64,000 nt of DNA, taken from IMG/VR virus record IMGVR_UViG_3300025087_000044, positions 35,114 to 99,113 of that record; one strand, 5' to 3'. A program made the translations under genes and the position numbers. Shown piece by piece: positions 31,511-47,427 of this stretch (position 1 is the stretch's first letter; each line of letters opens with the position of its first letter). The stretch is from a virus. The notes under the pieces are model-generated. The model saw only the letters and a list, made by a program, of their open reading frames with translations. It was not told where the DNA came from and did no database searches.

Positions 31511-31641
31511 ATGTCTTTAAGAAAAGTGTTTATTCCGTGGAACAAGGGACTGAAAACTGGTGCTTAAGTTGTCATATAAAAACAAACAAGAATAGAGATT
31601 GTTGGAAGGATTATTTTAACAAAATGTTGTTATGCGTATAG
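31511..31641 (+). pseudogene. remnant of an HNH homing endonuclease
   Basis: An 18-residue frame MSLRKVFIPWNKGLKTGA resembles the NUMOD3-like start of the HNH protein at 53905 (AWNKGKK). In an overlapping frame, ENWCLSCHIKTNKNRDCWKD, then YFNKM matches the end of HNH nucleases (compare LCNVCHSKTNSNREYW at 53500). The HNH core between them is gone, so this looks like an internal deletion. Confidence 0.55.
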
Positions 31642-32249
31642 AAACATCTTGGGACGACGGGACTAAGACTGACATAAGATTGGCAGAACTTCTTTTGAAG
31701 TACGATATTCCTGCCATTTTCTTTATTCCGAGCAATCATGAGTTGACAATTGAGCAGATTAAATGGCTTGATAAGAGCGGATTTGAGATAGGGGGACACA
31801 CAGTACATCACTTTCATGACCTGAAGTTAAGGCCAACTGATGTGATTTTCCATGAGATTTACGATAATAAGTTAGACCTTGAGCAGATTCTTGGGAAAGA
31901 GTTGCGGTGGTTCTGTTATCCCCGAGGAAGACATAGCGACCAGACTGATTTATTGGTTGAGGGTTGTGGATACAAGTATGCAAGGACTACTGTCGTAGGA
32001 GTAACAGATGCAAGGTCTAGCTTTGTTAAGCATACTTCAGTCCATGTGTTTGATGGCAGGGAAGAGTATAAGCCAGAGAGTGATTGGTTGGAATATGCCA
32101 AACGAATATTTCTTGAAGCTAGGAACCGTGGTGCTGGCGTGTTTCATTTGTGGGGTCACTCACGAGAAGTTGAAAAATGGTCGCAATGGTCGCGACTTGA
32201 GGAGTTCTTTATTTGGATGAAAGCAAACTGTTTTAATGATGAGGCATAA
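31632..32249 (+). CDS. polysaccharide deacetylase, NodB-like
   Basis: 205 residues with all NodB-homology motifs: TSWDDGTKTD (DD pair), IGGHTVHH (metal-binding HxxxH), WFCYPRGRH and VFHLWGHS. It removes acetyl groups from N-acetylated sugars using a divalent metal. No signal peptide, so it acts in the cytoplasm on a precursor or is used after lysis. It opens the glycan island. Confidence 0.88.
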   Translation: MRIETSWDDGTKTDIRLAELLLKYDIPAIFFIPSNHELTIEQIKWLDKSGFEIGGHTVHHFHDLKLRPTDVIFHEIYDNKLDLEQILGKELRWFCYPRGRHSDQTDLLVEGCGYKYARTTVVGVTDARSSFVKHTSVHVFDGREEYKPESDWLEYAKRIFLEARNRGAGVFHLWGHSREVEKWSQWSRLEEFFIWMKANCFNDEA

Positions 32250-32284
32250 ACCTTTTCCTGAAATGCTTGTCATTCGGGAGAGAA

Positions 32285-32354
32285 CGAGGGGCTTTGCCTC
32301 TGCGTGCTGGCGTAACTGCCTTTGGGTAATGCCCAACAACAAATACGCCCCTCG
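32285..32354 (+). promoter_or_regulatory. structured RNA element before a glycosyltransferase
   Basis: CGAGGGGC 32285-32292 pairs with GCCCCTCG 32347-32354. Inside, TGGG 32323-32326 pairs with CCCA 32332-32335, and GGC/GCC 3-bp helices are possible. The element ends 28 bp before the ATG at 32383 and may be a leader, a processing site or a stem that separates genes. No known riboswitch is recognised. Confidence 0.5.
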
Positions 32355-32382
32355 TCATTAGAACGGTTAAATAAATTTATTT

Positions 32383-33249
32383 ATGAATATCTATTTACCA
32401 AACACGTCTAAGATGGACCTTGGCGGTGGCTGGACATTTCGACGCGGACTAATCAAAGCCTCTAAAGACGCAGGTTTTAATATCGTAAACACTTGGAAAG
32501 AGTGTGATGTGATTCTTATTACTGGAGCAACCATGACTGACAGGTCTGAGATGCAGGAGGCTAAGAAGAATGGTAAAAAGATTTTCTTTCGGATAGACAA
32601 CATGCCTAAAGATTCCAACAACAGAGGAACAGCATTTTCAAGAATGAGGGATTTCTCTCTGATTGCAGATGGATTTATTTTTCAGAGTGAGTGGGCAAAG
32701 GATTATGTGGGACATTGGATTAACTGGACTGTCAAGGCTCCCAATTTTTATAACAACAAAGTTATCTATAACGGAGTTGATTCCGATTATTTCTTTTGTA
32801 ATGACAATCCTGAAGAACGCAAGGGTAATAAGTATCTGTACGTCAGATATAACCGTGACGAGAACAAACGATTTCCCGAAGCGGCTATGGATTTCTATAA
32901 AGTTGCCAGAAAATATAAAGATGTAGAGTTTGTAATAGTTGGTAAGTTCAGTCAAGAGAACATGGATTACAACTTTGATTTTTTTAATGGAGAGGAGATA
33001 AGTTATATTCCGCCAGTAGAAGACCCAGCAGTAATGGGAACAATCATGCGTCAGTGCAAGTATCTGTATTTCCCCGCCTATGCAGATGCTTCACCAAATT
33101 CTTTGGCGGAGGGAATGGCCTGCGGATTGAAACCATTACTTATCAATCCTGAAGGAGGTTCAGTTGAAGTTGAGAAGTTGTGGAGTAATGGCAACAAATA
33201 CAGTATTCACGATATGGCTAAAGATTATTTTAATTTTATAAATAACTAA
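32383..33249 (+). CDS. glycosyltransferase, GT4-like
   Basis: 288 residues. GGGWTFRRGLIKASKDAGF at the start, KVIYNGVDSDYFF and KYLYFPAYADASPNSLAEGM, ACGLKPLLIN near the end (ExxACG signature) show a GT-B fold with a GT4-type donor-binding loop. It transfers a sugar from a nucleotide donor to an unknown acceptor. Cytoplasmic. Confidence 0.82.
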   Translation: MNIYLPNTSKMDLGGGWTFRRGLIKASKDAGFNIVNTWKECDVILITGATMTDRSEMQEAKKNGKKIFFRIDNMPKDSNNRGTAFSRMRDFSLIADGFIFQSEWAKDYVGHWINWTVKAPNFYNNKVIYNGVDSDYFFCNDNPEERKGNKYLYVRYNRDENKRFPEAAMDFYKVARKYKDVEFVIVGKFSQENMDYNFDFFNGEEISYIPPVEDPAVMGTIMRQCKYLYFPAYADASPNSLAEGMACGLKPLLINPEGGSVEVEKLWSNGNKYSIHDMAKDYFNFINN

Positions 33250-33257
33250 ACAAATCT

Positions 33258-33734
33258 ATGGGAACTGATTTCGTGTTGAAAGAGTATCTGTTGGAGCATT
33301 TTAACAAAGTGTATGGCGAGGTAATTGATGAGATTCTTTTAAGCCTCATTAAGTTTGAGTCAATTAAGGATTATTCTGCATCGGTCAATGCTGAGATTTT
33401 GGCTTATGACGAAGTTGCATTGAGGGCCGACTTGAAAGCGGTATCGGATGAGTTTGATGTAGTCAAGGCTGAGTACGATGAGAAGATTAAGAATGATTCA
33501 TTGACTGAGGAAGAGAAAGTTAAGTACATGGAATTGAATGGGAAAAAAGAGGAATTGAACAACAAGATTGATTCTCTTTTGAGGGCGCGTTCGATTGCAG
33601 ATAAAAACTTGCGGAACATCAGCGAGCAGATGTTTCATTTTAGGAGTGTCATTGGACTATATGACAAGATGTCTTTGTTGTTGGTTGAGGACAATAAAGA
33701 AGAGGCTGCCGAAGAAACTGCTAAAGTTGAATAA
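33258..33734 (+). CDS. hypothetical coiled-coil protein
   Basis: 158 residues, almost wholly helical and charged (LRADLKAVSDEFDVVKAEYD, MELNGKKEELNNKIDSLL), with an acidic tail. It could be a scaffold, structural or assembly protein. It stands within the glycan island 9 bp after a glycosyltransferase. Function unknown. Confidence 0.5.
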   Translation: MGTDFVLKEYLLEHFNKVYGEVIDEILLSLIKFESIKDYSASVNAEILAYDEVALRADLKAVSDEFDVVKAEYDEKIKNDSLTEEEKVKYMELNGKKEELNNKIDSLLRARSIADKNLRNISEQMFHFRSVIGLYDKMSLLLVEDNKEEAAEETAKVE

Positions 33735-33737
33735 AAT

Positions 33738-34592
33738 ATGCTCATGGTTACGGGAAATTTGGGATTTATCGGAATGCACCTCGCTTCTGAATTAAAGAAG
33801 CGAGGCATTCTGTTTGTCGGCTATGATTTAGCTGACGGGAACGATATAAGAGATTCTCAAAATCTTGATGCGTTCTTTGAAAGAAATCAAATCACTCACG
33901 TTATTCACATGGCGGCTCTGGCTGGAGTAAGGAGAGGTGAAGAGTATCCAGATGATTATATCTCCACTAATATCAAAGGAACGCTAAATGTAGTAAGGAT
34001 GTGCGAGAAGTATAAGATTAAACATCTTGTTTCGTTTTCCAGTTCATCTGTTTATGGAAACGGAAATCCGCCCATATCAGAAGACCACCCTAAAAATCCA
34101 GTAAGTATTTATGGAATGACTAAGTTGATGGGTGAGAAGTTAGTTGAAAACGCTAAGATTGCACAAAAGACAATAGTTATTCCATTTACTGTCTATGGAG
34201 AGAACGGCCGTAAAGATGAAGTAATCTATAAATGGTTGGAACAACACAAGAATGGGCTTCCCATTACTATTTATGGAGACGGTGAGTCCATTCGCGGATA
34301 TGTTAATGTCCATGACTTAGTGGAAACTGTAGTTAAGCTTGTTGAGGAATACGAAGGTAAGTGGAGTTGCGAGAGTTTTAATCTTGGCGGAAATGAGCAA
34401 GTGAGATTGGCTGAACTGTTTAGTGTATTCACGGATAACATAAAAGGTTTAAAGTGGGTAATGCTTGACATGCCGGCCAGCGATGTAGTGTGTAATTACG
34501 CAGATACGAGAAAAGCATATAATGTTCTTGGATTCAGGCCTAGATTGATGTTTTACGAGAATGTTAAAAAAATAATCAAAAGAGAATTATGA
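33738..34592 (+). CDS. NAD-dependent sugar-nucleotide epimerase/dehydratase
   Basis: 284 residues. An extended short-chain dehydrogenase: TGNLGFIGMHLA (NAD-binding, TGxxGxxG), HMAALAGVRRG, SFSSSSVYG (catalytic Ser), YGMTKLMGEK (Tyr-x3-Lys), and VNVHDLV. The pattern is closest to UDP-glucose or UDP-glucuronate 4-epimerases. Placed next to the UDP-glucose dehydrogenase, it could turn UDP-glucuronate into UDP-galacturonate. Confidence 0.85.
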   Translation: MLMVTGNLGFIGMHLASELKKRGILFVGYDLADGNDIRDSQNLDAFFERNQITHVIHMAALAGVRRGEEYPDDYISTNIKGTLNVVRMCEKYKIKHLVSFSSSSVYGNGNPPISEDHPKNPVSIYGMTKLMGEKLVENAKIAQKTIVIPFTVYGENGRKDEVIYKWLEQHKNGLPITIYGDGESIRGYVNVHDLVETVVKLVEEYEGKWSCESFNLGGNEQVRLAELFSVFTDNIKGLKWVMLDMPASDVVCNYADTRKAYNVLGFRPRLMFYENVKKIIKREL

Positions 34593-34792
34593 CAAAGTCA
34601 CAAATCAATAAAATAACAAAGGTTTTTAATCCGAGTTATAACGAAGTTACTGAGATGTATGAGTTCTGCTTGAATGTTGAATTCAAACTTACTAATGAAT
34701 TTTTCAAGAAAGCTGACTATGATAAAGTCATTGCACTAATTAAGAAGATAGTTGCTACCGGAATAAAAGAAGAATTTAATAAAATAAAATAA
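34589..34792 (+). CDS. small hypothetical protein
   Basis: 67 residues (MTKSQINKITKVFNPSYNEV...), amphipathic. It begins inside the stop of the epimerase (ATGA) and ends 4 bp before the dehydrogenase, so it belongs to that unit. Function unknown. Confidence 0.5.
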   Translation: MTKSQINKITKVFNPSYNEVTEMYEFCLNVEFKLTNEFFKKADYDKVIALIKKIVATGIKEEFNKIK

Positions 34793-34796
34793 TTTT

Positions 34797-36734
34797 ATGA
34801 AACCAACAATAGGATTCGTAGGGCAAGGGTTCATAGGTTCAGCTTACTCTGATGACTTTGAAAGGAGGGGGTATAAAGTCATCAGATATAGTTTAGATAA
34901 GTTTGTTGAAAACAAGGAAAAGATTGCTGAGTGCGATATTACGTTTATTGCAGTCCCTACGCCCTCAACTCCTGACGGGTTTGATTATTCCATAGTTGAG
35001 AACGTGTTGCAGCTTATCGGTAAAGAAAAGATTGCTGTCATAAAGTCAACTGTTCTGCCGGGAACTACTGAAAAACTGCAAGAAAAGTATCCTGATATTT
35101 ACTTGTTTCATTCGCCAGAGTTTTTGACTGAAAAGACTGCTATTTATGACGCAGCCAATCCTGCAAGAAACATAGTTGGATATACCGAGAAATCATTTTC
35201 CAAATCACAGAATGTAATGAATGTATTGCCTCCTGCTCCATTTGAATCAATCGTTCCTGTTAAAGAGGCTGAACTAGTAAAGTATGCAGGAAACTGCTGG
35301 TTCTATTTTAAGATTGTGTTTATGAATACTGTTTATGATTTGAGCCAAAAGTTAGGTATTGATTACGAGAGCGTTATCAACATGATGGCAGCTGACAAGC
35401 GAATAGGCAGAAGTCATCTTGACGTTGTCCATCAGGGTGGCAGAGGAGCAGGTGGCCGCTGTTTATTGCCGGACACTAAAATAATTACAGAAAAAGGAAT
35501 TAAAAACATTTGTGATATTGAAATTGGCGAGAGAGTGCTGACTCACACTGGAGTATTTAAAAAGGTAATCAATACTTCAAAAAGAGAAATCAATGAATTG
35601 ATAAATGTAATTAAGTGTCAGGGTACTCAGCCGTTTTATGTGACAAATGAGCACCCTGTATTTTCAGCTTTATCGAATAGAAAATATTGTGGTGTTAAAA
35701 AAAGAAAATTAACTAATGGAAACAAAGACAAGATAAAGTTAGATTTTAATTTATCAGAAAGTCTTAGTATTGGAGACTATATTTGTTTCCCAAAGTTTGT
35801 TCAAAAATCAGTTAGTTTTAAGATAGATGGATTAGAATTAAAATCAGAGCAAGATAAACTAGATTTTATGAGATTGGCTGGGTATTATATAGCTGAAGGT
35901 TGCAATGACAGAAAAAGAGTTAGTTTTGGGTTTAATATAAACGAGGTTGAGTATCACAAAGATGTTACTGGCATAATAAAGAGACTATTTGATTATGATG
36001 CGTGCATCAATAAAGATGTTAAACGTCACCAATATAATATAAGAATCAATTCTGTTAAAATGTCTAAAATGTTTCGAGATTTGTTCGATAGACTTTCTCA
36101 AAATATACACATACCAAACGAATGGCTATTGTTTGAAGATAAGTATCTTAAAGAATTGTTGAGAGGCTATTTTAGGGGAGATGGAAGTTTTAGTAAAAAC
36201 GTTTTTACTTCTGCCACTATATCATTTAAGCTTGACGAGCAACTAAGGTTCTTGCTTTATCGTTTTGGGATAGTTTACAATTCTCATCACAAGAATGAAA
36301 AGGTTGACAAGAATGGACTGTGTCATAAAAAATCTTATTATATTTGTGTTAGCAGTATAGATGAAACTCAGAAGATAGCAGATATTACTGGTTATGATTT
36401 TGTAAAAGATGTTAAACTGATTAGGCATACTGCTTTTGTTAAGGATAATTATTTGCTTAGGTCTATCAGAGAGATAGAAAAAATTAAATATACTGGTTTG
36501 GTTTATAATCTTGAAGTAGAAGGTGATAATTCCTACGTTGGACTAGATGGAGTTTGGCACAATTGCTTCGTCAAGGATATGGCAGCGTATGCAGAGATGT
36601 ATGAGGAGTATGTTGGCGAAGACATGATGGGCAATGATTTGCTTATTATAATCCAGCAAAAGAACATAGAATTGTTGCGTTCTTCTGGTAAGGATTTGGA
36701 TTTGGTTAATGGAGTTTACGGAGAAAAAATATGA
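34797..36734 (+). CDS. UDP-glucose/GDP-mannose dehydrogenase with intein
   Basis: 645 residues as translated, 277 after intein removal. N-extein IGFVGQGFIGSAYSDDF is the NAD-binding GxGxxG. IAVPTPSTPDG, TVLPGTTEKL, HSPEFLTE and KYAGNCW are typical of the family. The intein (residues 222-589) sits exactly at the catalytic Cys: GAGGR-[intein]-CFVKD rebuilds the GAGGRCFVKD active site. The product oxidises UDP-glucose to UDP-glucuronate or a related substrate. At 277 residues it lacks the usual third domain, so it is shorter than normal. Confidence 0.9.
   Translation: MKPTIGFVGQGFIGSAYSDDFERRGYKVIRYSLDKFVENKEKIAECDITFIAVPTPSTPDGFDYSIVENVLQLIGKEKIAVIKSTVLPGTTEKLQEKYPDIYLFHSPEFLTEKTAIYDAANPARNIVGYTEKSFSKSQNVMNVLPPAPFESIVPVKEAELVKYAGNCWFYFKIVFMNTVYDLSQKLGIDYESVINMMAADKRIGRSHLDVVHQGGRGAGGRCLLPDTKIITEKGIKNICDIEIGERVLTHTGVFKKVINTSKREINELINVIKCQGTQPFYVTNEHPVFSALSNRKYCGVKKRKLTNGNKDKIKLDFNLSESLSIGDYICFPKFVQKSVSFKIDGLELKSEQDKLDFMRLAGYYIAEGCNDRKRVSFGFNINEVEYHKDVTGIIKRLFDYDACINKDVKRHQYNIRINSVKMSKMFRDLFDRLSQNIHIPNEWLLFEDKYLKELLRGYFRGDGSFSKNVFTSATISFKLDEQLRFLLYRFGIVYNSHHKNEKVDKNGLCHKKSYYICVSSIDETQKIADITGYDFVKDVKLIRHTAFVKDNYLLRSIREIEKIKYTGLVYNLEVEGDNSYVGLDGVWHNCFVKDMAAYAEMYEEYVGEDMMGNDLLIIIQQKNIELLRSSGKDLDLVNGVYGEKI
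35460..36563 (+). mobile_element. intein with LAGLIDADG endonuclease in the sugar dehydrogenase
   Basis: 368 residues starting CLLPDTKIIT and ending GLDGVWHN, followed by +1 Cys, the standard class 1 splicing residues. NEHPVF is block B, LAGYYIAEGC and LRGYFRGDGSF are the two LAGLIDADG motifs. Insertion at the catalytic Cys codon makes splicing essential for activity. Confidence 0.92.
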
Positions 36735-37696
36735 GCAACGAATATAAGCCAAAGATTTCAGCTTTCTGCTTGACAACAAACTCATTGTCAAATGGTTATC
36801 CTGTTATGGAAAGCATAAGAAGTTGGCTCCCAGTATTGGATGAGCTTATTGTTATTGATGGCGGTTCAACCGATGATACAATCAAAGAGATAAACAAGAT
36901 AGGAGACAGTAAGATTAAAATCATCTGCGATTCTGAAACTTTATGGGAAGATGACTGGATTTATTCAAGAATGGGAAAGAACTTCAATCGAGGGTTGCAA
37001 GAATGTACTGGAGATATTGTAATCAAGTTCGATATTGATTATGTGCTTCACGAGAATGGCACACTCCCTAAGTATTTCAGGGGCAGTTGTTATAACTTTG
37101 CCAATAACAGTTCTCAGGTAGCACTTGCAGTTACTAGATTGAATTTTGTTCTTGCTGACAGGTACTTTGTTAAGTCTGAAAGAACGTTGGGGATAGACAG
37201 AAGAAAGTTGGAACACGCCTCTGGAGTGAAGGTTGTGTTCGGAATGGATACGGAAAGATGGGGATTCGGGTATGACTTCATAGTCCCTAAATTTGAAGAG
37301 AATGGGATATGGTTTGGAGATATGATAAGGAATAGTGGAAACCAGTGCGTTCCCAAGGGCGGGGCCGTGTATAATTATGACAATGTATTCTCAACGATTG
37401 AAGAGGTTAAACGTAAAAGATTAAAGCATTACAAGGCTGAGTTAAGACAACGTGATTTAAAGTATAATAATGCAAGCGTGTCTTCAGGCGTACATACTTA
37501 TCAGCAAGTATGCGATAACAATGATTTTGCATGGGAGCATTATGAGAATATGTGTCTAGCTAATTTAAGACGAGGACAGACTAGGATGGCTATAGCTGAA
37601 CACCCTAAAGTTATTCAAGATTCACTCATTAAGCTTTCTCACAAATGCCAAGGTTATGATTTCTTTGGAAGAGCAGAGAAAGCAAGTTATTACTAA
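36731..37696 (+). CDS. glycosyltransferase family 2-like
   Basis: 321 residues. LTTNSLSNGYPVMESIRSW, LDELIVIDGGSTDDTIKEI and VIKFDIDYVL show the GT-A layout: IDGGSTDDT and the metal-binding DxD-like DID. The C-terminal half is a large unassigned acceptor domain. It overlaps the dehydrogenase as ATGA. Confidence 0.8.
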   Translation: MSNEYKPKISAFCLTTNSLSNGYPVMESIRSWLPVLDELIVIDGGSTDDTIKEINKIGDSKIKIICDSETLWEDDWIYSRMGKNFNRGLQECTGDIVIKFDIDYVLHENGTLPKYFRGSCYNFANNSSQVALAVTRLNFVLADRYFVKSERTLGIDRRKLEHASGVKVVFGMDTERWGFGYDFIVPKFEENGIWFGDMIRNSGNQCVPKGGAVYNYDNVFSTIEEVKRKRLKHYKAELRQRDLKYNNASVSSGVHTYQQVCDNNDFAWEHYENMCLANLRRGQTRMAIAEHPKVIQDSLIKLSHKCQGYDFFGRAEKASYY

Positions 37697-37698
37697 AT

Positions 37699-38286
37699 AT
37701 GTCAAGCGTTTCGAGAGTTCAACTTGAATCATGGTTACGTACTATTGACGTAAAGTGCAATAGATTGCTTGATATTGGTGGAAGTCAGAATGAGATTAAG
37801 GGAAGAACTATGAGTTGGGATGTAGGTGATTATGTTATTCATGATTTGCAAATTCCTCACGAGAACAAGATTTCTCCAAGTTTAATGTTTGATTTGAATT
37901 ATGAAATTGAAAATTTAGAGTTGTTAGATTCTTGTGATTTTGATATTGCTTTTATGATAGAGGTATTGGAATATGTATGGAATCCGGTACAGGCATTCAA
38001 GACTATAAACAAGATGATGAGAATGAATGGCCTATTGTATCTATCTTCTCATTTTGTTTATAAGTGTCATCCACCCGAGGGATTAGATTGTTTAAGATAT
38101 ACTCCATTCGGAATAGAGAAGATTCTCTCAGAAACAGGATTTTCCATTATAGATAAGATTGACAGGATATCAGATACCGGCTTGCTTTCAGCTTTTTATC
38201 AAGGTGATAGGATGAGAGGGAAAACTGACGTTGATGACAATGTTACTGGTTCACTTATTAAATGCGTTAAGATAAGAAATTTATGA
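37699..38286 (+). CDS. SAM-dependent methyltransferase
   Basis: 195 residues. LLDIGGSQNEIKG is motif I (binding of the SAM Gly loop), CDFDIAFMIEVLEYVWNP motif II-III. The second half (LLYLSSHFVYKCHPPEGLDC) is typical of class I enzymes acting on small molecules or sugars. It overlaps the next methyltransferase by 4 bp. Confidence 0.75.
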   Translation: MSSVSRVQLESWLRTIDVKCNRLLDIGGSQNEIKGRTMSWDVGDYVIHDLQIPHENKISPSLMFDLNYEIENLELLDSCDFDIAFMIEVLEYVWNPVQAFKTINKMMRMNGLLYLSSHFVYKCHPPEGLDCLRYTPFGIEKILSETGFSIIDKIDRISDTGLLSAFYQGDRMRGKTDVDDNVTGSLIKCVKIRNL

Positions 38287-38915
38287 GTGATTTAATTCCA
38301 AAAGAAGTGTGGGCTTCACGAGATAAGGCAAGTGCATGGATTGATAGGGCTGAGAAGATAAAAAACAGTATTCCCGAAGACGTGAATACTGATATTCAGT
38401 CAATCCATTCTTTTATAGACGATGTAAGGAAATGTGATTTTAAATCTTTTCTTGAAGTTGGAGCAGGAAATGGAAGGTTGATTGGCTCTTTATCGAAAAA
38501 GTTAAGGAAACGAGAGTTTGCGTCCATTGATATAAATCCTTATTTGTCAGAGTATGTTTCCACTAAATATCAGAGAGTTGATTCTTATGTGGGAGACGTG
38601 ATTAAACTTCCTTTTGATAATGATACGTTTGATTTAGTTTATACTTATCAGGTGTTACAGCACGTTCCGCCTTCCGATGTTAATACTGCATTGCATGAAA
38701 TGATAAGAGTGTGCAAGAAGGAAGTATGGATAATGGAGGGACATGACCCTGAGTATAGCCATTGTATGAATGGATTCATGAGAAAAGGAACTGATGGAGG
38801 GACATTCGTTTATCGGTTCGATGAGATGGTTTCTTGCTACGAGACATCGATTCCTAGTTCAGAAAAATTAAAGGACATGGGCGTTAAGTTATATAAAATT
38901 AAAAAATATGCTTAA
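38283..38915 (+). CDS. SAM-dependent methyltransferase
   Basis: 210 residues, class I fold: FLEVGAGNGRLIGSLSKKL (motif I), VGDVIKLPFDNDTFDLVYTY (motif II-III), QVLQHVPPSDVNTALHEMIR. A Methyltransf_11-type protein. In this island it probably methylates a sugar or a nucleotide-linked sugar. Confidence 0.82.
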   Translation: MSDLIPKEVWASRDKASAWIDRAEKIKNSIPEDVNTDIQSIHSFIDDVRKCDFKSFLEVGAGNGRLIGSLSKKLRKREFASIDINPYLSEYVSTKYQRVDSYVGDVIKLPFDNDTFDLVYTYQVLQHVPPSDVNTALHEMIRVCKKEVWIMEGHDPEYSHCMNGFMRKGTDGGTFVYRFDEMVSCYETSIPSSEKLKDMGVKLYKIKKYA

Positions 38916-39594
38916 AAAATTATTTCTAGTTCCTTATTGCGGTGATTTGCCCAATTGGATGGATAAGTATAAAGACAACATTGAAAAGTTAAAGCAATAC
39001 GGATTCGAGTGGAAGATAATAACAGACATTGAAGATTTCAAACAGAGAGTACGGGACAAGTTAAGAGTTGAGCCTTGTATTCCACCTAATACCATTAAGA
39101 TGAGTGATTTTCACCCAGCCATGGGATTGCTTTATGAAGAAGAATTAAAAGGTTACGACTTTTGGGGATACACAGACCTTGATATCGTGTATGGGCGGCT
39201 GGACAAATACGTGACTGATGAACTGCTTAATGCCGTTGATGTATTCAGTAATGATGAGAATGAGATGTGCGGCCCATTTAGTTTGTTGCGTAATTGCAGT
39301 AAGGTTAATAATCTTTTTAAGGATAAGGCTAACTGGAAACAGATAATGGAGGATGGGTATATTTATATATTCAATGAGGACGGAAGAGATGGTGATTTCG
39401 GATTTACTAGTTTAGTTAACAATGAGGTTAGAGTGGGTCATCTAAGAAGACGGTCTGCTCATTGGATGAGTAATGAAAGAAGTTCATTTGAACTTGAAAT
39501 GAAGAAAGACGGCTCATTGTTTAATTGCGGTGATGAGACCATGATGTTCCACTTCAACGACAGCAAAAAATATCCAGAGATAATATATGAATAG
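38908..39594 (+). CDS. DUF6625-like glycosyltransferase
   Basis: 228 residues. LKGYDFWGYTDLDIVYGRLD contains the FWGYxDxDxxxG motif of DUF6625 and related GT-A enzymes, where the D-x-D binds the metal. LFLVPYCGDLPNWMDKY starts the fold. It overlaps both neighbours by 8 bp, so the run 38283-41209 is one translationally coupled unit. Confidence 0.75.
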   Translation: MLKKLFLVPYCGDLPNWMDKYKDNIEKLKQYGFEWKIITDIEDFKQRVRDKLRVEPCIPPNTIKMSDFHPAMGLLYEEELKGYDFWGYTDLDIVYGRLDKYVTDELLNAVDVFSNDENEMCGPFSLLRNCSKVNNLFKDKANWKQIMEDGYIYIFNEDGRDGDFGFTSLVNNEVRVGHLRRRSAHWMSNERSSFELEMKKDGSLFNCGDETMMFHFNDSKKYPEIIYE

Positions 39595-40105
39595 TATAAA
39601 TTTAGACATTAAAGGTTGGATGAGCGAAGAGGAACTGCTCTGGCTTCACGAAAGAGCTAAAGAGATGAGTTCTATTGTTGAGATTGGGAGTTGGATGGGC
39701 AGGAGTACTTATGCTTTGTTGACTGGTTGCAAGGGAAATGTTATTGCAGTTGACCATTTTCTTGGAAACAAGGAAGAGCAGTTTATGTTAGACTTGGCAA
39801 AAGATGATTATGTATATAAAGAATTCATCAAGAATGTGGGAATGTTTGATAATCTAATAGTTGAAAGGAATAGCAGTCTTGAAACTGCTGATAAGTATAA
39901 AGACAAAGCATTCGATATGGTGTTCATTGACGGTTCTCATCTTTATAGGGCAGTGATAAATGACATAAGAGCGTGGAGTCCAAAAACATTAAAGTTAATC
40001 TGCGGCCACGATTATGACTTTCCAGACGTGAAGATGGCCGTTGGCGAGTGCATGAAAATCGATGGTTGTATTGGGTCAATCTGGTATAAATATCTAAACG
40101 TATGA
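39587..40105 (+). CDS. SAM-dependent methyltransferase (Methyltransf_24-like)
   Basis: 172 residues. IVEIGSWMGRSTYALLTGCK (motif I), VIAVDHFLGNKEEQF and FDMVFIDGSHLYRAVINDIR match class I methyltransferases of the Methyltransf_24 type, which often act on sugars or phenols. ATGA-coupled to the next gene. Confidence 0.8.
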   Translation: MNSINLDIKGWMSEEELLWLHERAKEMSSIVEIGSWMGRSTYALLTGCKGNVIAVDHFLGNKEEQFMLDLAKDDYVYKEFIKNVGMFDNLIVERNSSLETADKYKDKAFDMVFIDGSHLYRAVINDIRAWSPKTLKLICGHDYDFPDVKMAVGECMKIDGCIGSIWYKYLNV

Positions 40106-40764
40106 TAGAGGTCTGCATGTGCATATATAAAAGGGTTGGAAGATTGAAAGAAATAGTAGAAATGTTCAAGCGTCAAACAAGACAAGACTTTAATCTTAAC
40201 ATTTGGAATAACAGTGGACAGAAGTTATCCATTGACTTCCCCAAGGAAAGACTGATGATAGTTGATTCTCCTAAAAACATAGGAGCCATAGGTAGATTCA
40301 ATCTTGTGAAGCTAGTTAAGGGCAATGTCATTGTTTTCATAGACGACGATGAGCTTATTGATGATGATTTCATTGATTACAATTATAATAAGTATTGTGA
40401 ATTTGGAGATGATTGCGTTTTGGGTTGGTATAACAAGATATTTAAGTCGAATGATTACAGAGACGAGGAAATATTCCTTCCGGAAGGTACGTTAGTTGAT
40501 TACATAGGCACAGGAGGAATGATTCTTAATCGTAAATTGTTCGATGATAATTGTTCATTGTATGACATAAAATGTAAGTGCGAACTGGCAGAGGACTTGT
40601 ATCTGTGTTTCATTGCCAAGTCAAATGGTTACAAGTTAATAGCCATAGATAAAAAATGTGAACAGATAAATGACGGACAAAATTTCACCAGCAAGTTGCC
40701 GCACAATTATAAGACTGATGCTTTGAATGAGTTAATAAGCAAAGGATTTAAGATAGGAGGATAA
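40102..40764 (+). CDS. glycosyltransferase family 2
   Basis: 220 residues. VCMCIYKRVGRLKEIVEMFK, then KGNVIVFIDDDELIDDDF (DDD metal-binding) and YIGTGGMILNRKLFDD, the GT-A fold with the ED..LC motif (ELAEDLYLCF). Short, single-domain enzyme. Donor unknown. Confidence 0.82.
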   Translation: MIEVCMCIYKRVGRLKEIVEMFKRQTRQDFNLNIWNNSGQKLSIDFPKERLMIVDSPKNIGAIGRFNLVKLVKGNVIVFIDDDELIDDDFIDYNYNKYCEFGDDCVLGWYNKIFKSNDYRDEEIFLPEGTLVDYIGTGGMILNRKLFDDNCSLYDIKCKCELAEDLYLCFIAKSNGYKLIAIDKKCEQINDGQNFTSKLPHNYKTDALNELISKGFKIGG

Positions 40765-40765
40765 T

Positions 40766-41209
40766 ATGAAAAAGAAACTGCTTATAGTTGCCCATTTTGA
40801 CGATGAGATACTGTGGTTCAATCCTTATAAGTTTGACAAGATAGTTGTTTGTTTCCTTGGCAGAGATGATAAGCCTGGGTTCGATGTGAAAAGACTTGCC
40901 GTATTCGCTGAGCATCCGTTAAAGGAAAAGATGGAATGTCTTAATATAAACGAACAAGATGATTGTGCTGAAAAAGCTATAAATGATTATCTCATTGGCA
41001 ATGGTAGGAAATTTGACTTTATCCACACTCATAATTCAAAAGGAGAATACGGCCACAAGCACCATTTAATGGTTCATTCCATAGTTAAGAGGCTATTCCC
41101 TGATGAGATTGTTGAAAGTTGTCTTGACAACACCAACAGCAAAGACAGATGGTTCGTAAGCATTAAAAATATATATCTAAAATATGGATGCTGGACTTGG
41201 AAAAAGTAA
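40766..41209 (+). CDS. PIG-L/LmbE family deacetylase
   Basis: 147 residues. IVAHFDDEILWF (AHxDDE zinc motif) and FIHTHNSKGEYGHKHHLMVH (H-x-x-H-H) give the catalytic zinc site of N-acetylglucosaminyl deacetylases of the PIG-L/LmbE type. It is shorter than most family members. With the NodB enzyme at 31632 it gives two unrelated deacetylases in the island. GGAGG precedes the start. Confidence 0.85.
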   Translation: MKKKLLIVAHFDDEILWFNPYKFDKIVVCFLGRDDKPGFDVKRLAVFAEHPLKEKMECLNINEQDDCAEKAINDYLIGNGRKFDFIHTHNSKGEYGHKHHLMVHSIVKRLFPDEIVESCLDNTNSKDRWFVSIKNIYLKYGCWTWKK

Positions 41210-42248
41210 ATGTTTTTACGAAAGAGATATTGATAAGTTGATTAAGTATGATGACTTCGGCAGGAAGTCAAGGCTCTTAGTGTCCAAGGAAAACATTGAG
41301 AGCGTTGGACTTGAATACCATGAAGGAAGATGTATAAAAATAAAAGTAAGCCCTGATTTTATTGGTAATTTAGATAAAGTTAGAAAGCTATCATTAGTTG
41401 GCCAGTATTTGTGTTACAGGGGGCTGAGTCCAAAGATTTATGACTGCGGAGTTGTAACTGTCGGTGGCATTGAGTATCCTTATTTTGACGTTGAGTATAT
41501 AGCTAACAAGAAAAATTCAAATGACACAAACAAAATCAAGGATGAGGTGCGTAAAGAACTTAACAAGCTTGATTGGATTACTAAGGTTTATGAAGTTGAT
41601 TTAATTAACCAAGATAATTACATCGGAAATAAGTATATAGACTTCCATGGATTTGAAATTGACGATGACAAATTTTACAGATGGATTGTTGGATTGATAA
41701 ACAACAACACGCATTGGGGACATAAGAATGAAGCTGGAAACAAATTCGCTTATCAGGATTTTGATGGAGTAATCGGCAAGAGAAGGATTGAAGATAGGAT
41801 TGTTTCACTTGGCGCGGATAAGATTGATTATCGTGGAAAGACCGTGCTTGACATAGGATGCAATCTTGGGTTGATTGCAAATTACGCCATGGAATCAGGA
41901 GCAAGTCGGTCTGTTGGTGTGGACTTAAAGCCAGTTATAGAGGCCGCTGACATGTACAAATTGCACAAAGGATACAAGACTGAACTATATTATTCAGAAC
42001 TAACGGATAAGAACATCACGCAGTACGGAAAATTTGATATAGTGTTTTTCTTAGCCATGAGTTACTCGCTTGGAATCCCCAAGGAGTTGGCTGAAATTAC
42101 TGAAGAGTTGCTTGTTTATGAAGGGCATGACAGAGAAGATAAAGAAAAAACATCAACAAAGCTTAACGCCATATTTAAGAGGGTTGTTTTTGCGGGATTC
42201 ACTAATGACAGAGGAAAGCGGCCTACATTTATTTGTTACAAAAAATAG
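41184..42248 (+). CDS. two-domain protein with methyltransferase C-terminus
   Basis: 354 residues. The N-terminal 170 residues (LDWITKVYEVDLINQDNYIG, NKYIDFHGFEI) resemble a kinase-like or sugar-binding domain. Residues 215-354 have VLDIGCNLGLIANYAMESGA (motif I) and KFDIVFFLAMSYSLGI, a class I methyltransferase. A fusion of a modifying module to a methyltransferase. It overlaps the deacetylase by 26 bp. Confidence 0.7.
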   Translation: MDAGLGKSKCFYERDIDKLIKYDDFGRKSRLLVSKENIESVGLEYHEGRCIKIKVSPDFIGNLDKVRKLSLVGQYLCYRGLSPKIYDCGVVTVGGIEYPYFDVEYIANKKNSNDTNKIKDEVRKELNKLDWITKVYEVDLINQDNYIGNKYIDFHGFEIDDDKFYRWIVGLINNNTHWGHKNEAGNKFAYQDFDGVIGKRRIEDRIVSLGADKIDYRGKTVLDIGCNLGLIANYAMESGASRSVGVDLKPVIEAADMYKLHKGYKTELYYSELTDKNITQYGKFDIVFFLAMSYSLGIPKELAEITEELLVYEGHDREDKEKTSTKLNAIFKRVVFAGFTNDRGKRPTFICYKK

Positions 42249-42249
42249 T

Positions 42250-42816
42250 ATGACTAAGTACAATTTTGGATGTGGAAATAAATACGAGAAAGGATATGTC
42301 AATGTTGATGCTTTGAATTGGTCAGTTCCTCCGGATGTGTTGTGGGATTTGTCTAAAGTCCCTTATGAATTCGCTGATGATAATTCAGCAGACGAGATAT
42401 TGGCTATAGAGGTTCTTGAGCATTTATCATTCAGGGATACTGTAAAGGTTCTTGGTGAGTGGAAGCGAATCCTAAAGGTTAACGGAAAGCTTACAATCCA
42501 AGTCCCTGATTGCGGAAAGATGATGGAGTATTATGTTGATGGAAAGATATGCTCATGTGTTGAGCATAAGCCTAAAGATGAGTTTGAGGGGTACGGTAAG
42601 GAGTCTTGCTTTGAGTGTGGTGGAAGAGGAAGGATAAATCCAACTCGATGGCTATATGCTTTTACAGGTGCACAAAAGACCGGAACTGCGGATATTCACA
42701 AGAACATCTTTACCAAGCAGATATTGTCCAACGTGTTTGATGTTTGTAAATTTCGTTCTTATGAAATAAAAAGTGATAAAAGGGGTTGGAAACTAATTGC
42801 TGAGGCAACTAAATAA
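42250..42816 (+). CDS. SAM-dependent methyltransferase with zinc knuckles
   Basis: 188 residues. YNFGCGNKYEKGYVNVDA (motif I-like), ADEILAIEVLEHLSFRDTVK (motif III) and a CSCVEHKPKD...ESCFECGGRG zinc-binding insert. The start at 42250 follows the previous stop by one base. Belongs to the methyltransferases that pair with glycosyltransferases in phage and capsule clusters. Confidence 0.75.
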   Translation: MTKYNFGCGNKYEKGYVNVDALNWSVPPDVLWDLSKVPYEFADDNSADEILAIEVLEHLSFRDTVKVLGEWKRILKVNGKLTIQVPDCGKMMEYYVDGKICSCVEHKPKDEFEGYGKESCFECGGRGRINPTRWLYAFTGAQKTGTADIHKNIFTKQILSNVFDVCKFRSYEIKSDKRGWKLIAEATK

Positions 42817-42817
42817 T

Positions 42818-43294
42818 ATGACAATCAGAGATATTGCTAAAGTTACAAACTGGGAAGACGTTAAACGTTCAATCAAATATCATTATCCAGATGACCACAA
42901 TGATTACGAGAAACTGTTTTTATCCTTTCCTAACAGAAAGAAGAAGAAAGTTAAGATTGGAGAGTCACTCGTTGTACATGGAGGGATTGATGTTAATTCA
43001 GAGTGGTTCAAGGTTCACGGAAGGCATTACTTGGAGAGTTTAGAGACTGGAGATGAGAAGCAGTATTACGGCATTAACATAAAGAATGAAGGAGATGAGC
43101 AGTCTTGGTCATTGATGTTTGTGGATTATGATTGTCTTGTTAATGTACCTATAAATGAAGTTACTCTGAAATGTTTCATGTTTGCGGATATACTTGCTCA
43201 TTTCATTTGGGAGATAACGTATTTAGGAGGAGAGAAGGAAATGAAGAAGAAGCGTACTGAATTTGATAAGACAATTAAATCAATTAAAAAATAA
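42818..43294 (+). CDS. hypothetical protein
   Basis: 158 residues (MTIRDIAKVTNWEDVKRSIK...), alpha/beta with VKIGESLVVHGGIDVNSEW and MFVDYDCLVNVPINEVTLKC, then a basic tail. No known domain. It lies in the glycan island between a methyltransferase and a double glycosyltransferase. Confidence 0.55.
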   Translation: MTIRDIAKVTNWEDVKRSIKYHYPDDHNDYEKLFLSFPNRKKKKVKIGESLVVHGGIDVNSEWFKVHGRHYLESLETGDEKQYYGINIKNEGDEQSWSLMFVDYDCLVNVPINEVTLKCFMFADILAHFIWEITYLGGEKEMKKKRTEFDKTIKSIKK

Positions 43295-43298
43295 CTCT

Positions 43299-44963
43299 AT
43301 GAAGATTTGCATAGTCGTAGATTCCCCTTCTTGGGCCATAGGAAAACTTGCCATTGCCAAGGTTAAGCATAACTCTCATCACCAGTTCGAGTATCTTGTT
43401 GTCCACCCCAGGGATGCAGGAGAAAAGCCGATTCAAGATGCTTTTATTGAGAAGATTAGAGCATTTGACCCGCAGATAATCCATTTCGAGTATTTCAGAA
43501 CGGCTTCACAACTTCTAGTAGCGTTTCCCGAATTGAAGAAGTACAAGATAATGCTTACTCATCATAACCAGAGGGACAAGAAAGCTTTACTGTCTGCTGA
43601 CTGGGAGGTTCTTGGCGTTAATCAAAACATCACGCATACAGAGAAATGCAAAAAGATATTGGTTGAAAGAGGCAATCAGAAACACGTTGATGTAATCAAG
43701 CATGGAGTGGATAGCGATTTGTTCATTTTTTCAGACAAAGAACCAGAAGAGTTCACTGTTGGATATGTTGGACGTATAGTGCCATGGAAGAGGTTGAAAG
43801 ATGTGGCAGAGATATGTCATGAGTTGAAAGTCCCTTTAATGTTTATGGGAATGAGAGACAAGGAAGATTACTGGCAGACTATTTCTGACGAGGCAAAGAA
43901 TTCAATAAACTTTTCATTCATGGATTGCAAGGACGAAGAGAGAATTGATTTCTACAGAAACATAACGTGTTGCGTTAGTTTCTCTGATGATGGATACGAA
44001 GAGGGGCCATTATCCTTTTTTGAGGCCATGTTCAGTGGAGTGCCTGTGATTACCACGCCTAACGGGACAGCGGCTGAGTTTGGTAAGGATAACGAGAATT
44101 GCCTCATGGTTGGATTCGGAGACAGGGAAGCATTAAAGACTTCCATTATAAAGTTAAGAGATGACTTTGAGTTAAGGAAAAAGTTAAGAAACAATGCCTG
44201 GGATTTTATCAAAAATTACAACGAGAAACGAATGGCCTATGATTATTCAAGAGCTTATAATAAATTGATGTTTGGCGACAATGACTTAGTTTCTGTAATT
44301 CTGCCCACTTACAACAGAAAGGAACAAGTTATATCAATTCTCAACAGGATAAAGGAACAGACATATAAAGCCATTGAAGTTATCATTGCCGATGACGGGT
44401 CGGATGAAGAAGGTTTTATGGATGATATAAACAGATGGAAGTATTCCAATAATGATTTGACTGTCAAGATTGTGCATACAGGCAATGATATAATCAGAAA
44501 AACAGGAAAGAAGGCATACGGATTAGCCATGGCTAGGAATATGGCAGTGTGCGAATCAGAAGGAAGATTCCTTATGTTCTTAGACAGTAGAATCCTTCCT
44601 GACATAAACGCCGTAGAAGATTTTGTTGTATTTGCCAAGGGACAGCTTGCCATTGACGGCAAGAAGAAGATGTGGTATTTCGGAAACAAGGGCAATGGAA
44701 AGTCAACTTTCGTAGAGAACTTTTCTTTCGTTGAGCGAGATGCGTTTATTAAATTCGGAATGTTTAATGAACGGATAACAGCTTATGGCGGTATGAGTCA
44801 AGACATAAGAATGAGATGGCCAAAGACCAATGATAATGAATTTATGTTCTTGAGCGATATAAACGCTACTGAGATGATAAGCGCACACAAGCGTGGCGAT
44901 GAGCGTAGAAAAGACATTATAGACATGAAGTTCTTATTATATCGTTTGAACTTATTAACATAG
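43299..44963 (+). CDS. bifunctional glycosyltransferase (GT4-GT2 fusion)
   Basis: 554 residues. Residues 1-320 are GT-B: VGYVGRIVPWKRLKDVAEI, SDDGYEEGPLSFFEAMFSGV and PVITTPNGTAAEFG form the GT4 donor-binding half. Residues 325-554 are GT-A: VSVILPTYNRKEQVISIL, VIIADDGSDEEG and GRFLMFLDSRI. Two transferase domains on one chain imply two sequential sugar additions by the same protein. Confidence 0.85.
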   Translation: MKICIVVDSPSWAIGKLAIAKVKHNSHHQFEYLVVHPRDAGEKPIQDAFIEKIRAFDPQIIHFEYFRTASQLLVAFPELKKYKIMLTHHNQRDKKALLSADWEVLGVNQNITHTEKCKKILVERGNQKHVDVIKHGVDSDLFIFSDKEPEEFTVGYVGRIVPWKRLKDVAEICHELKVPLMFMGMRDKEDYWQTISDEAKNSINFSFMDCKDEERIDFYRNITCCVSFSDDGYEEGPLSFFEAMFSGVPVITTPNGTAAEFGKDNENCLMVGFGDREALKTSIIKLRDDFELRKKLRNNAWDFIKNYNEKRMAYDYSRAYNKLMFGDNDLVSVILPTYNRKEQVISILNRIKEQTYKAIEVIIADDGSDEEGFMDDINRWKYSNNDLTVKIVHTGNDIIRKTGKKAYGLAMARNMAVCESEGRFLMFLDSRILPDINAVEDFVVFAKGQLAIDGKKKMWYFGNKGNGKSTFVENFSFVERDAFIKFGMFNERITAYGGMSQDIRMRWPKTNDNEFMFLSDINATEMISAHKRGDERRKDIIDMKFLLYRLNLLT

Positions 44964-44968
44964 TAAAT

Positions 44969-46018
44969 ATGGATACAATAAAAATTTTAAATTATTCCTG
45001 GCATTTATCACATCAGAATTCTCTTTTTTCCATTCCAGCAACTGAATGGTCGTGGCTCACTCAGTATAAACGTCAGTATGGTACTGGAGTAAGAGGTGAT
45101 ATTCTTAAAAAGTATAATGTAAAGTCGGTTCCTTTTTTCGAGAAAGGAAAATATGACGCAGTACTGCTTCATCTTGACCAGCAATGTTTCGAGGATAGTC
45201 TTTGGGAGAGAGGAAAGGGAAGTTTGTTTCGAGAGGTTAACAGTTCTGTTTATGGAGTGCCTAAGATTGTAATCATGCACGGAACGCCTTTTTATCCCGA
45301 GATGTTTCCTTCTGATATTCAAGATTTCAATTATAAAGAGTTGGGCTTTGAAGAGTCGCAGATAAACATGAGCAGCGAACTTATCAATCGATTTAAAGAT
45401 GCGGTTAAAGACTTTGATAAGATAGTGTTCAATTCAAGACGAGCCAAGAGCCAATGGGGATTTGACAATGACGCTAGAGCTATTGCAATCTGGCATGGAC
45501 TTGAAGCTACTGATTGGCTTGACCTTCCCAAGGAGCCTCGTGTAGTTACTATGATTAGTCCTGGAGGGTTAGATAGTTATTACGATAGGACATTTTTAAA
45601 AGCCGTTAAGGACAAATTGTCAGAAAAAGACATAATGCACTGTCATATTACGGTTGATGTGCAGTTCAAGTCATTCGATGAGTACCGAGATTTCCTCGGA
45701 AGAAGTCTTATTTATTTCAATCCCACAAAAGAGAGTCCGATGCCAAGGTCGAGAACAGAGGCTATGCTTTCAGGTTGTTGCGTTGTTACTACGTTCAATC
45801 AAGATTCTGAATTATTTATGAAAGACGGAGTTAATGGATTCAAGGCTATCCGCAATCCTGATTATGTAGTAACTCTCATAGAGGGTCTTATAAAAAATTA
45901 TCAAAAGGCCATAGAAGTTGGACAGGAGGGCAAGAAGACTGCACTTGAGTTGTTTTCCAAGGACAGGTTCGAGTCCCAGTGGAGAGGCCTCCTTGAGGAG
46001 GTTACACATAAGCCCTAA
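44969..46018 (+). CDS. glycosyltransferase, GT4-like
   Basis: 349 residues. IVIMHGTPFYPEMFPSDIQD, FDKIVFNSRRAKSQWGF, FNPTKESPMPRSRTEAMLSG and CCVVTTFNQDSELF form a GT-B fold with the EA.L.G signature. The 3' end runs into the CTAACCCCTCTC repeats, whose first unit overlaps its stop. Confidence 0.8.
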   Translation: MDTIKILNYSWHLSHQNSLFSIPATEWSWLTQYKRQYGTGVRGDILKKYNVKSVPFFEKGKYDAVLLHLDQQCFEDSLWERGKGSLFREVNSSVYGVPKIVIMHGTPFYPEMFPSDIQDFNYKELGFEESQINMSSELINRFKDAVKDFDKIVFNSRRAKSQWGFDNDARAIAIWHGLEATDWLDLPKEPRVVTMISPGGLDSYYDRTFLKAVKDKLSEKDIMHCHITVDVQFKSFDEYRDFLGRSLIYFNPTKESPMPRSRTEAMLSGCCVVTTFNQDSELFMKDGVNGFKAIRNPDYVVTLIEGLIKNYQKAIEVGQEGKKTALELFSKDRFESQWRGLLEEVTHKP

Positions 46019-46050
46019 CCCCTCTCCTAACCCCTCTCTTAACCCCTCTA
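46015..46050. repeat. three 12-bp tandem repeats
   Basis: CTAACCCCTCTC, CTAACCCCTCTC and TTAACCCCTCTA in tandem at 46015-46050, the first overlapping the TAA of the glycosyltransferase. Confidence 0.7.
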
Positions 46051-46099
46051 TTTTGCTCTACAACGAATGATAATCATAAAAACATAATCCTATATCAAT

Positions 46100-46999
46100 A
46101 TGGAAGATTTAACTTCTAAAATCAATTGTGGAATCCTTACTTTCGACCAATTCCACGGGCGCAAGAAAAACACGGGAAGTTCCAGGATAAGGGGCGAGTG
46201 GTTGTTAAAATACTGGCCTGAGGCTGAGTATTTTATTCAAGGCAAGAGTTATAAGTCTGTTATTTACCAGAAGGCGTATTTCACGGACCATGCCAAGGCG
46301 TTCAATTATTGTCTTGATAGTGATGGTAGTTACAAGAAACCTGTAAAGATTCTTGACATTACAGACCCTGATTATTTGTGGTGGCAGGGGCGTGTTATTG
46401 AGATGGCCAATGAATGTGACGCAATAACCACATCAACTGAAGCGTTGGTAGATGATTTTAGAAATTTTTTCCCCAACAAGCGAGTTAAATGGATTAAGGA
46501 TAGAATGGACTTAGAGTTCCACAACGAGAAGAAAGTCCACGTTGGAGATGCAAGGAGAGTTGTTTGGTTTGGGTATTCCTCTAATTTCGAGATGTTGCTC
46601 CCTGTTCTTACGTTCCTAGAAAAGCTTGGATTAACCTTGATTGTGATTTCCGATAGGCCATTTACGGCTCCGTCCCATTACGATATAAACATAGAAAATT
46701 ATCAGTGGGATATTGAAACAGTTAATCGAGATATTATCAAAGGAGATATTGCAATAAATCCTCAAAGCAAATCGGGAAAGTGGAGATATAAGAGTGAGAA
46801 CAAGACAATTACAGCCAATCTTCTGGGAGTTCCGGTAGCTAAGGATTTAGCTGATTTGAAACGTCTTATAGATTGTGATGAACGTATAAAAGATGCCGAA
46901 GAATCACGTAAAATAGCGATAGAACAATATGACGTTCGCCAAAGTGTATCAGAGTATAAGGCTCTCATTGATGAGATTTATCTCGAGAAGAATAGTTAA
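46100..46999 (+). CDS. glycosyltransferase-like protein
   Basis: 299 residues. ILTFDQFHGRKKNTGSSRIR, then RVVWFGYSSNFEMLLPVLTF and LLGVPVAKDLADLKRLIDCD, with a GT-B-like Rossmann arrangement (WFGY nucleotide-binding strand, DITDPDYLWW). It is the last large gene of the glycan island. Donor and acceptor unknown. Confidence 0.65.
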   Translation: MEDLTSKINCGILTFDQFHGRKKNTGSSRIRGEWLLKYWPEAEYFIQGKSYKSVIYQKAYFTDHAKAFNYCLDSDGSYKKPVKILDITDPDYLWWQGRVIEMANECDAITTSTEALVDDFRNFFPNKRVKWIKDRMDLEFHNEKKVHVGDARRVVWFGYSSNFEMLLPVLTFLEKLGLTLIVISDRPFTAPSHYDINIENYQWDIETVNRDIIKGDIAINPQSKSGKWRYKSENKTITANLLGVPVAKDLADLKRLIDCDERIKDAEESRKIAIEQYDVRQSVSEYKALIDEIYLEKNS

Positions 47000-47417: not shown

Positions 47418-47427
47418 TTGCGTATAT

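Follow-up and report, generated by a model that had tools for sequence, protein, structure and literature searches.

What would a tailed phage do with about 15 kb of sugar-handling genes beside its portal gene, and were these genes inserted there? The question is raised by a stretch of viral DNA of 64,000 nt (hereafter the window), comprising positions 35,114-99,113 of the IMG/VR record IMGVR_UViG_3300025087_000044. Positions 31632-46999 of the window are densely coding, carry all of their genes on the + strand and lie between the genes for the large terminase subunit (TerL) and the portal. The gene content, the folds and the gene order were established directly, the portals beside this island in relatives fall in one clade, and no membrane glycan machinery was detected in the searches described below. 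With a probability of about 0.6, we read the island as a glycan-synthesis cassette that an uncultured lineage of tailed phages carries as a resident feature; the cassette's soluble enzymes would glycosylate virion proteins in the cytoplasm.

Gene content of the island

A preliminary description of the window had placed an island of glycan enzymes between terminase and portal, and Pfam matches and fold predictions, all on one strand, bore this out. The features are listed below by window coordinates and strand, with E-values for the matches (GT, glycosyltransferase; MT, methyltransferase; ORF, open reading frame).

29348-30985, +, TerL of the gpA type, upstream border (PF05876 8e-26, PF20454 5e-6)
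30987-31292, +, HU/IHF-like DNA-binding protein (named by eye), between TerL and the cassette (phrog_379 4e-13)
31632-32249, +, NodB-type polysaccharide deacetylase (PF01522 8e-17; WDD and HTVHH motifs)
32383-33249, +, GT4a glycosyltransferase, GT-B fold (PF00534 5e-6)
33258-33734, +, 158-aa protein, no assigned function (no Pfam match; weak match to phrog_2677, 0.008)
33738-34592, +, NAD-dependent sugar-nucleotide epimerase (PF01370 9e-50)
34797-36734, +, UDP-sugar 6-dehydrogenase with NAD and central domains and an intein (PF03721 6e-20, PF00984 2e-17, LAGLIDADG_3 2e-11)
36731-37696, +, GT2a glycosyltransferase, GT-A fold (PF00535 4.5e-7)
37699-38286, +, MT1 methyltransferase (PF08241 1e-4, above cut-off)
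38283-38915, +, MT2 methyltransferase (PF08241 2e-16)
38908-39594, +, DUF6625 protein, probable GT-A glycosyltransferase (PF20330 5e-30; D-L-D as D-x-D motif)
39587-40105, +, MT24 methyltransferase (PF13578 1e-14)
40102-40764, +, GT2b glycosyltransferase, GT-A fold (PF00535 7.5e-7)
40766-41209, +, weak PIG-L-like deacetylase (PF02585 1.3e-4, 22.9 bits against a cut-off of 28.2; AHFDDE and HxxH motifs)
41184-42248, +, MT3, methyltransferase in its C-terminal half (PF13649 1e-3, TIGR04290 1e-7, both below cut-off)
42250-42816, +, MT4 methyltransferase, ORF opening at TTG 42070 (PF08241 2e-5, above cut-off)
42797-43294, +, DUF6557 protein, no assigned function (PF20194 3e-11)
43263-44963, +, GT4-GT2 double glycosyltransferase, ATG at 43299 (PF00534 3e-19, PF00535 1e-12)
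44969-46018, +, GT4b, lineage-specific glycosyltransferase of the GT-B fold (Pfam 1.5e-4, below cut-off; fold prediction)
46100-46999, +, GT4c glycosyltransferase, GT-B fold (fold prediction; no Pfam or PHROGs match)
46929-47306, +, small zinc-ribbon-like protein (by eye); a homologue precedes the portal in the relative L007 and others
47407-49614, +, portal fused to a MuF domain, downstream border (PF04860 3e-66, MuF 7e-15)
49622-52327, +, head maturation protease with an inserted AAA+ ATPase (phrog_80 1e-12; PF00004 7e-19; PF04586 0.0024, below cut-off)

TerL ends at 30985 and is followed by the HU/IHF-like gene and a 339-bp gap; on the right, the portal starts at 47428 or 47407. From NodB to GT4c, neighbouring genes overlap or are at most 10 bp apart at 14 of 17 junctions, and the remaining three gaps measure 133, 204 and 81 bp. 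The G+C content of the island is 37.5%, and its mean third-position G+C (0.38) resembles that of the portal (0.39) and protease (0.38; TerL, 0.48), so that there is no compositional sign of recent import.

Six proteins with seven GT domains were counted from Pfam matches and two fold predictions, including GTs of both folds and the GT4-GT2 double enzyme, as the preliminary description had it; the DUF6625 protein is a probable seventh GT. The same description gave five or six methyltransferases: four scored above the Pfam cut-off (37699, 38283, 39587 and about 42250) and one below it (41184), and no sixth was found. The N-terminal part of MT3 is kinase-like, by eye only. Of the two deacetylases proposed, NodB stood (H[ST]xxH was present in 33/37 NodB ORFs of relatives, duplicates counted), and PIG-L was weak and below its cut-off, with its motifs visible; a strong PIG-L match (2e-23) was obtained with an island protein of one relative. 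The epimerase was recovered as described. Its best PDB matches were 5u4q, 6kv9 (MoeE5) and 6zl6; we take MoeE5 and 6zl6 to be UDP-glucuronate 4-epimerases, and a dehydrogenase-epimerase pair making UDP-galacturonate would fit.

The dehydrogenase was likewise recovered, with one correction: a 368-residue intein (residues 222-589) lies exactly at the catalytic Cys, and the C-terminal domain PF03720 is missing. An intein 55% identical to it occupies the same site in the dehydrogenase of the relative L079. Among features of the UDP-glucose dehydrogenase family, the NAD and central domains and the catalytic residues were found: Cys, Lys, Asn, Asp and the first Glu are present in 29/29 aligned sequences (window included), the second Glu in 28/29 and Thr in 21/29. 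PF03720, presumably UDP-binding, was found in 0/29 records and matched in 14/14 control genomes (13 above cut-off). The enzyme may require a partner or use another substrate.

GT4b and GT4c were modelled with AlphaFold from alignments of 23 and 26 sequences. Both models (pLDDT 90.8 and 91.8) have the GT-B fold, with GT4 enzymes as best PDB matches (E 5e-14 and 2.9e-8, respectively); donor and acceptor are not discriminated by these folds. In the viral fold search, GT4c matched other viral GT4-like proteins at 8-20% identity. The fold neighbours of both enzymes include tetrahydrobiopterin glucosyltransferase, SenB and BshA, which is compatible with modification of a soluble host target or small molecule, such as a defence signal or a host protein, instead of the virion. 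We regard this as improbable: the GT4 fold matches are generic, the cassette adjoins head genes, and at least seven GT domains with several methyltransferases suit a multi-sugar chain.

Gene order in relatives and the position of TerL

Relatives were recruited with GT4b, giving 88 contigs (83 from IMG/VR and five from metagenome-assembled genomes [MAGs]; window excluded). A search with a 23-protein GT4b alignment gave 94 IMG/VR matches, of which 80 were kept and examined, with the five MAG contigs in addition. Single-sequence TerL and GT4-GT2 queries against IMG/VR, and a two-sequence GT4b alignment against genome contigs, returned no relatives. The set contains near-copies (for example, L060/L061, and L052 and L065, which are identical across the portal domain in the tree). 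Homologues were called with phmmer or hmmsearch at E <= 1e-5, which undercounts diverged genes, and seven queries at 1e-8 were used for TerL. Since contigs were recruited via GT4b or the portal, only neighbouring genes are informative and not GT4b itself; an independent check on recruitment was provided by 28 portal-recruited loci.

In the first relative, L007 (portal 44% identical by tblastn and 47% in the alignment), homologues of GT4b and GT4c precede the portal. The alignment-based portal search gave 25/28 loci with GT4b and/or GT4c; the three negative loci, L056, L063 and L064, have just 0.66, 0.05 and 2.07 kb of sequence upstream of the portal. No cassette was seen at 23 loci, besides L007, with more distant portals, though many of these have little upstream sequence.

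Gene order was scored with the first copy of each gene, and GT4c was placed only where a copy lies downstream of GT4b (L123 and L126 additionally have a GT4c-like gene upstream). GT4c lies downstream of GT4b in 88/88 contigs (87/87 when at least 1.5 kb is available there). Of the 44 contigs with 9 kb or more downstream, 42 show the portal there; L117 and L126 have TerL and protease instead. Upstream of GT4b, all 45 contigs with 5 kb or more have GT4-GT2, and 41 of them have a methyltransferase gene. Where at least 9 kb of upstream sequence was available (n = 34), NodB was detected in 23 contigs, GT4a in 27, the dehydrogenase in 18 and the epimerase in 11. NodB precedes GT4a wherever both occur (30/30), and MT1 homologues are present in 42/88 contigs. 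The order NodB, GT4a, MT1, GT4-GT2, GT4b, GT4c, portal was kept for all tested pairs in 86/88 contigs, the two exceptions concerning MT1 and GT4-GT2 (39/41 in order). All 609 cassette gene calls in relatives (duplicate loci counted) share the strand of GT4b. The synteny check that had been proposed thus showed an ordered cassette kept beside the portal in most contigs with room for it.

In a midpoint-rooted portal tree of 107 rows (13 with upstream sequence too short to judge), cassette portals form one group of 84 rows with support of 98/95. L056 is its sole member without a visible cassette, and has too little room for one.

TerL behaves differently. The window type was found upstream of the cassette in 4/30 searched records (G001, G004, G008 and G011; 49% identical). 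A second type was found in 6/28 records, downstream of GT4b in G017, G020, G022, G026 and G028 and about 18 kb upstream in G012. With all types counted, TerL lies between GT4b and the portal in 35 of the 77 contigs with a visible portal. Five such ORFs were checked, and 5/5 matched PHROGs terminase families and 0/5 Pfam. The preliminary description had the island inserted between terminase and portal. Because TerL changes place while the cassette stays, that wording fits the window and not its history, and synteny together with the portal tree speaks against an insertion. Most simply, these data suggest that the cassette is ancestral to the lineage and anchored to the portal.

The content of the island varies between relatives. 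With L061 dropped as a copy of L060, the islands of the other 87 contigs yielded 691 ORFs, of which 466 match window proteins; 174 unmatched ORFs of at least 130 aa form 67 clusters. One representative per cluster was searched against Pfam, and the families named here are among the matches listed (25 of 58 families). These include methyltransferases (FkbM among them), GTs, nucleotidyltransferases, radical SAM proteins, a DegT aminotransferase, GDP-mannose dehydratase and PIG-L. Such glycan-related accessories fit a constant core with exchangeable decoration, as judged from gene families.

Several observations concern the relatives themselves. The five MAG contigs are labelled Magasanikbacteria, Granulicella, Cloacimonadota, Saccharibacteria and Tannerella; no host is named here because binning of viral contigs is unreliable. 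A 78.6-kb contig of a Candidatus Magasanikbacteria MAG (L065) and IMG contig 2626541986 (L052) have identical portal domains and the same cassette order, and the Saccharibacteria MAG contig carries the cassette too; ultra-small hosts are hinted at, not proven. The ends of G001 overlap by 121 bp, as would be expected of a circular genome that is complete; its length would be about 81.3 kb. In G020, G021, G022 and G029 the GT4b match falls in two pieces, some with stops, and introns or inteins within cassette genes are possible.

The 99-kb record looks composite, and misassembly could in principle have joined the cassette to head genes. Each end of the record nearly repeats sequence found further in: the last 544 bases (window 63457-64000) match an internal stretch in inverted orientation at 96% identity, and the first 358 bases match window 5746-6109 at 92%. 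A second set of TerL, portal, capsid and tail genes, named by eye, occupies the - strand of the first 35 kb (L004, L005), and its TerL matches those of some relatives. The record is possibly two phages joined in assembly. The island-portal junction has independent support, since it recurs across many IMG datasets, in contigs that have diverged, and also in the relative whose ends overlap. This recurrence rules out a misassembled cassette-portal join, an explanation to which we give almost no credence, and confines doubt to the left part of the record.

Other features of the window were recorded. The major capsid gene (52432-57515) is in seven pieces (52432-52677, 53649-53687, 54547-54600, 55325-55507, 56410-56775, 57046-57168 and 57426-57515) that align to the unsplit 403-aa capsid protein of G001; of these pieces, the two shortest overlap and have weak scores (E 0.003 and 0.014). 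Group I introns were matched in 6/6 gaps (two above the Rfam gathering score), and four ORFs inside look HNH-like by eye. A mycobacteriophage capsid gene is known to contain one intron (PMC3706429). The G001 protease aligns to both ends of the window protease (49622-52327), without the AAA+ insert. RtcB ligase pieces lie at 8866-11860, where one ORF has an intein-like insert starting with Ala (by eye); ahead of this ORF lie a further RtcB-like start and a gene resembling HNH genes. Upstream of TerL, by a ParB gene, window 24609-27017 holds two ORFs resembling the halves of a split GT4, only the second of which matches Pfam, and a 457-aa protein matching the GT family phrog_30253. In G005 (L147), homologues of the 457-aa protein and a SWIM protein likewise precede the cassette.

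Virion protein as the proposed acceptor

In the proposed pathway, the dehydrogenase and epimerase would supply a uronic-acid sugar nucleotide, and a conserved GT-B enzyme (GT4b or GT4c) would initiate the glycan on a virion protein. The chain would then be lengthened by GT4-GT2, GT4a, GT2a, GT2b and perhaps the DUF6625 protein, N-acetyl groups would be removed by NodB and PIG-L, and the five methyltransferases would cap or diversify the product. The glycan would be assembled in the cytoplasm and would need neither a lipid carrier nor export. A constant GT4-GT2/GT4b/GT4c core combined with varying decorating enzymes would give relatives chemically different coats. That the set could make and decorate a glycan, as the preliminary description proposed, is supported by the enzyme families; we infer the synthesis itself, the sugars, co-expression of the genes and a virion protein as acceptor.

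The count of membrane segments covered + strand ORFs of 90 aa or more between the first gene recognised as part of the cassette and the end of GT4c; loci listed as duplicates were excluded (L061 stayed in). Only 11/659 island ORFs of relatives had transmembrane-like (marginally hydrophobic) segments. Eight of these are recognised GTs or methyltransferases and three are short unassigned ORFs, one of which (L117, 109 aa) has two segments. In the window island only GT4c passed the test (1.99), yet it is modelled as a soluble GT-B fold. PF02397, the initiating lipid-carrier transferase, was found in 0/29 records, most of them fragments, against 9/14 control genomes; no search by name was made for flippase or polymerase families. 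Few membrane segments and no PF02397 together disfavour a lipid-linked, exported glycan.

These results bear on remodelling of the host surface, in which an O-antigen, capsule or cell-wall glycan would be altered and superinfection blocked. The enzyme types do resemble polysaccharide clusters: GT4-GT2 has NCBIfam matches to EpsD, TuaG and HpsO, all below cut-offs, and a GtrB-like match to phrog_22739 (4.6e-5) was obtained. Given the membrane and PF02397 results and the adjoining head genes, we consider such remodelling quite unlikely.

DNA hypermodification is to our minds also unlikely, if by a shade less. Here the GTs would place sugars on modified phage bases, as in T4, and so evade restriction. 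Soluble GTs are compatible with this, and one of the 67 accessory representatives is a C5-cytosine methylase. Phage SP-15, which has hypermodified DNA, has an annotated UDP-glucose dehydrogenase. G001 carries QueC, QueF, PTPS (QueD-like) and GTP cyclohydrolase I genes (among the matches listed, 25 of 42 families, 46 ORFs), which suggests that its DNA may bear 7-deazaguanine modifications. The neighbours of the cassette are portal and head genes, not replication genes. PF00303 (thymidylate synthase/hydroxymethylase) was found in 0/29 records, mostly fragments, compared with 9/14 controls, and hydroxymethyl-based glycosylated DNA is therefore disfavoured. Tet/JBP was matched in 0/29 records and in no control genome either. 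Virion glycosylation is retained as the preferred reading, a virion protein being the best remaining acceptor because head genes surround the cassette.

Some findings weigh against this reading. The dehydrogenase was undetected in 16/34 and the epimerase in 23/34 contigs with room for them, and the precursor step is therefore not universal. The substrate of the dehydrogenase may differ because the enzyme has no PF03720 domain, and the PIG-L and MT3 matches fall below cut-off. Some island accessories are unrelated to glycans: an HNH endonuclease makes up the largest unmatched cluster (20 ORFs), and the matches listed include DNA methylases, a Clp protease and an exonuclease. The 7-deazaguanine genes of G001 suggest that DNA modification is part of the biology of the lineage. 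Finally, the glycan, its acceptor and the expression of the genes are predictions.

Known systems and the biology of the lineage

The cassette lies in the predicted head operon, where the preliminary description had called such a set unusual, and the named phages agree. At E <= 1e-5, none of the 50,697 named phage records matched GT4b; GT4-GT2 had partial matches in 11 records, none covering 80%. TerL and portal had many distant matches (22-31% identity among the 30 and 20 matches listed; all below 60%). A literature search found no such cassette beyond the precedents cited here; it was largely without subscription journals and bioRxiv, so that absence from print is not implied.

Mycobacteriophages glycosylate capsid and tail tube using their own GTs (PMC12363180, PMC12619734). 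Che8, Corndog and Myrna are, like the present lineage, tailed phages with their own GTs, one being named per phage (PMC12363180), whereas here a 15-kb ordered cassette adjoins the portal. The deacetylases, methyltransferases and sugar-nucleotide enzymes predicted here from genes set the cassette apart from the single mycobacteriophage GT. As in those phages, GTs without membrane segments were found. In moraphages, large aquatic jumbo phages of more than 200 kb compared here by description, four core orthologue groups are putative glycosyltransferases (PMC12619734). The capsid of the chlorovirus PBCV-1 is glycosylated in the cytoplasm by at least eight putative GTs of its own, one protein being a GT-GT-methyltransferase (PMC7019647). 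Common to both are a viral set acting in the cytoplasm (as proposed for the present one), several GTs and a protein with two GT domains, which in PBCV-1 also has a methyltransferase (PMC7019647); PBCV-1 differs in its eukaryotic host and as an unrelated virus, and the ordered single cluster is found here. As in chloroviruses, several GT and methyltransferase genes occur here without detected export machinery.

In cyanophage S-SCSM2R, a UDP-glucose dehydrogenase lies amid five annotated GTs of the stretch compared, and in C48C1 an epimerase is paired with a dehydrogenase of just 319 aa, but among replication genes; these clusters differ also in that GT4b matches no phage record. The gtr seroconversion cassettes share phage-borne GTs with the present one and use a membrane flippase and a lipid-carrier enzyme; no such membrane protein was detected here by the segment count or the PF02397 search. 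As a putative virion-glycosylating set, the cassette is known in kind, from mycobacteriophages and chloroviruses, and new in scale, order and lineage-wide conservation. More tentatively, and with less than even confidence, it may be a lineage-defining ordered assembly line that gives every virion a methylated coat of uronic and amino sugars, a prokaryotic counterpart of chlorovirus capsid glycosylation.

In the sources cited, phage sugar coats are known from a few cultured cases, for each of which one enzyme or a small number is named. Glycan synthesis could also draw on the soluble GTs, the dehydrogenase with its missing domain and the methyltransferases that vary among relatives as candidate enzymes. 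If a glycan cassette of about 10-15 kb is indeed as constant as the portal, questions follow on the protective role of the coat, on its carrier protein and on swaps of decorating enzymes under selection, and virion glycosylation can be core biology of tailed phages.

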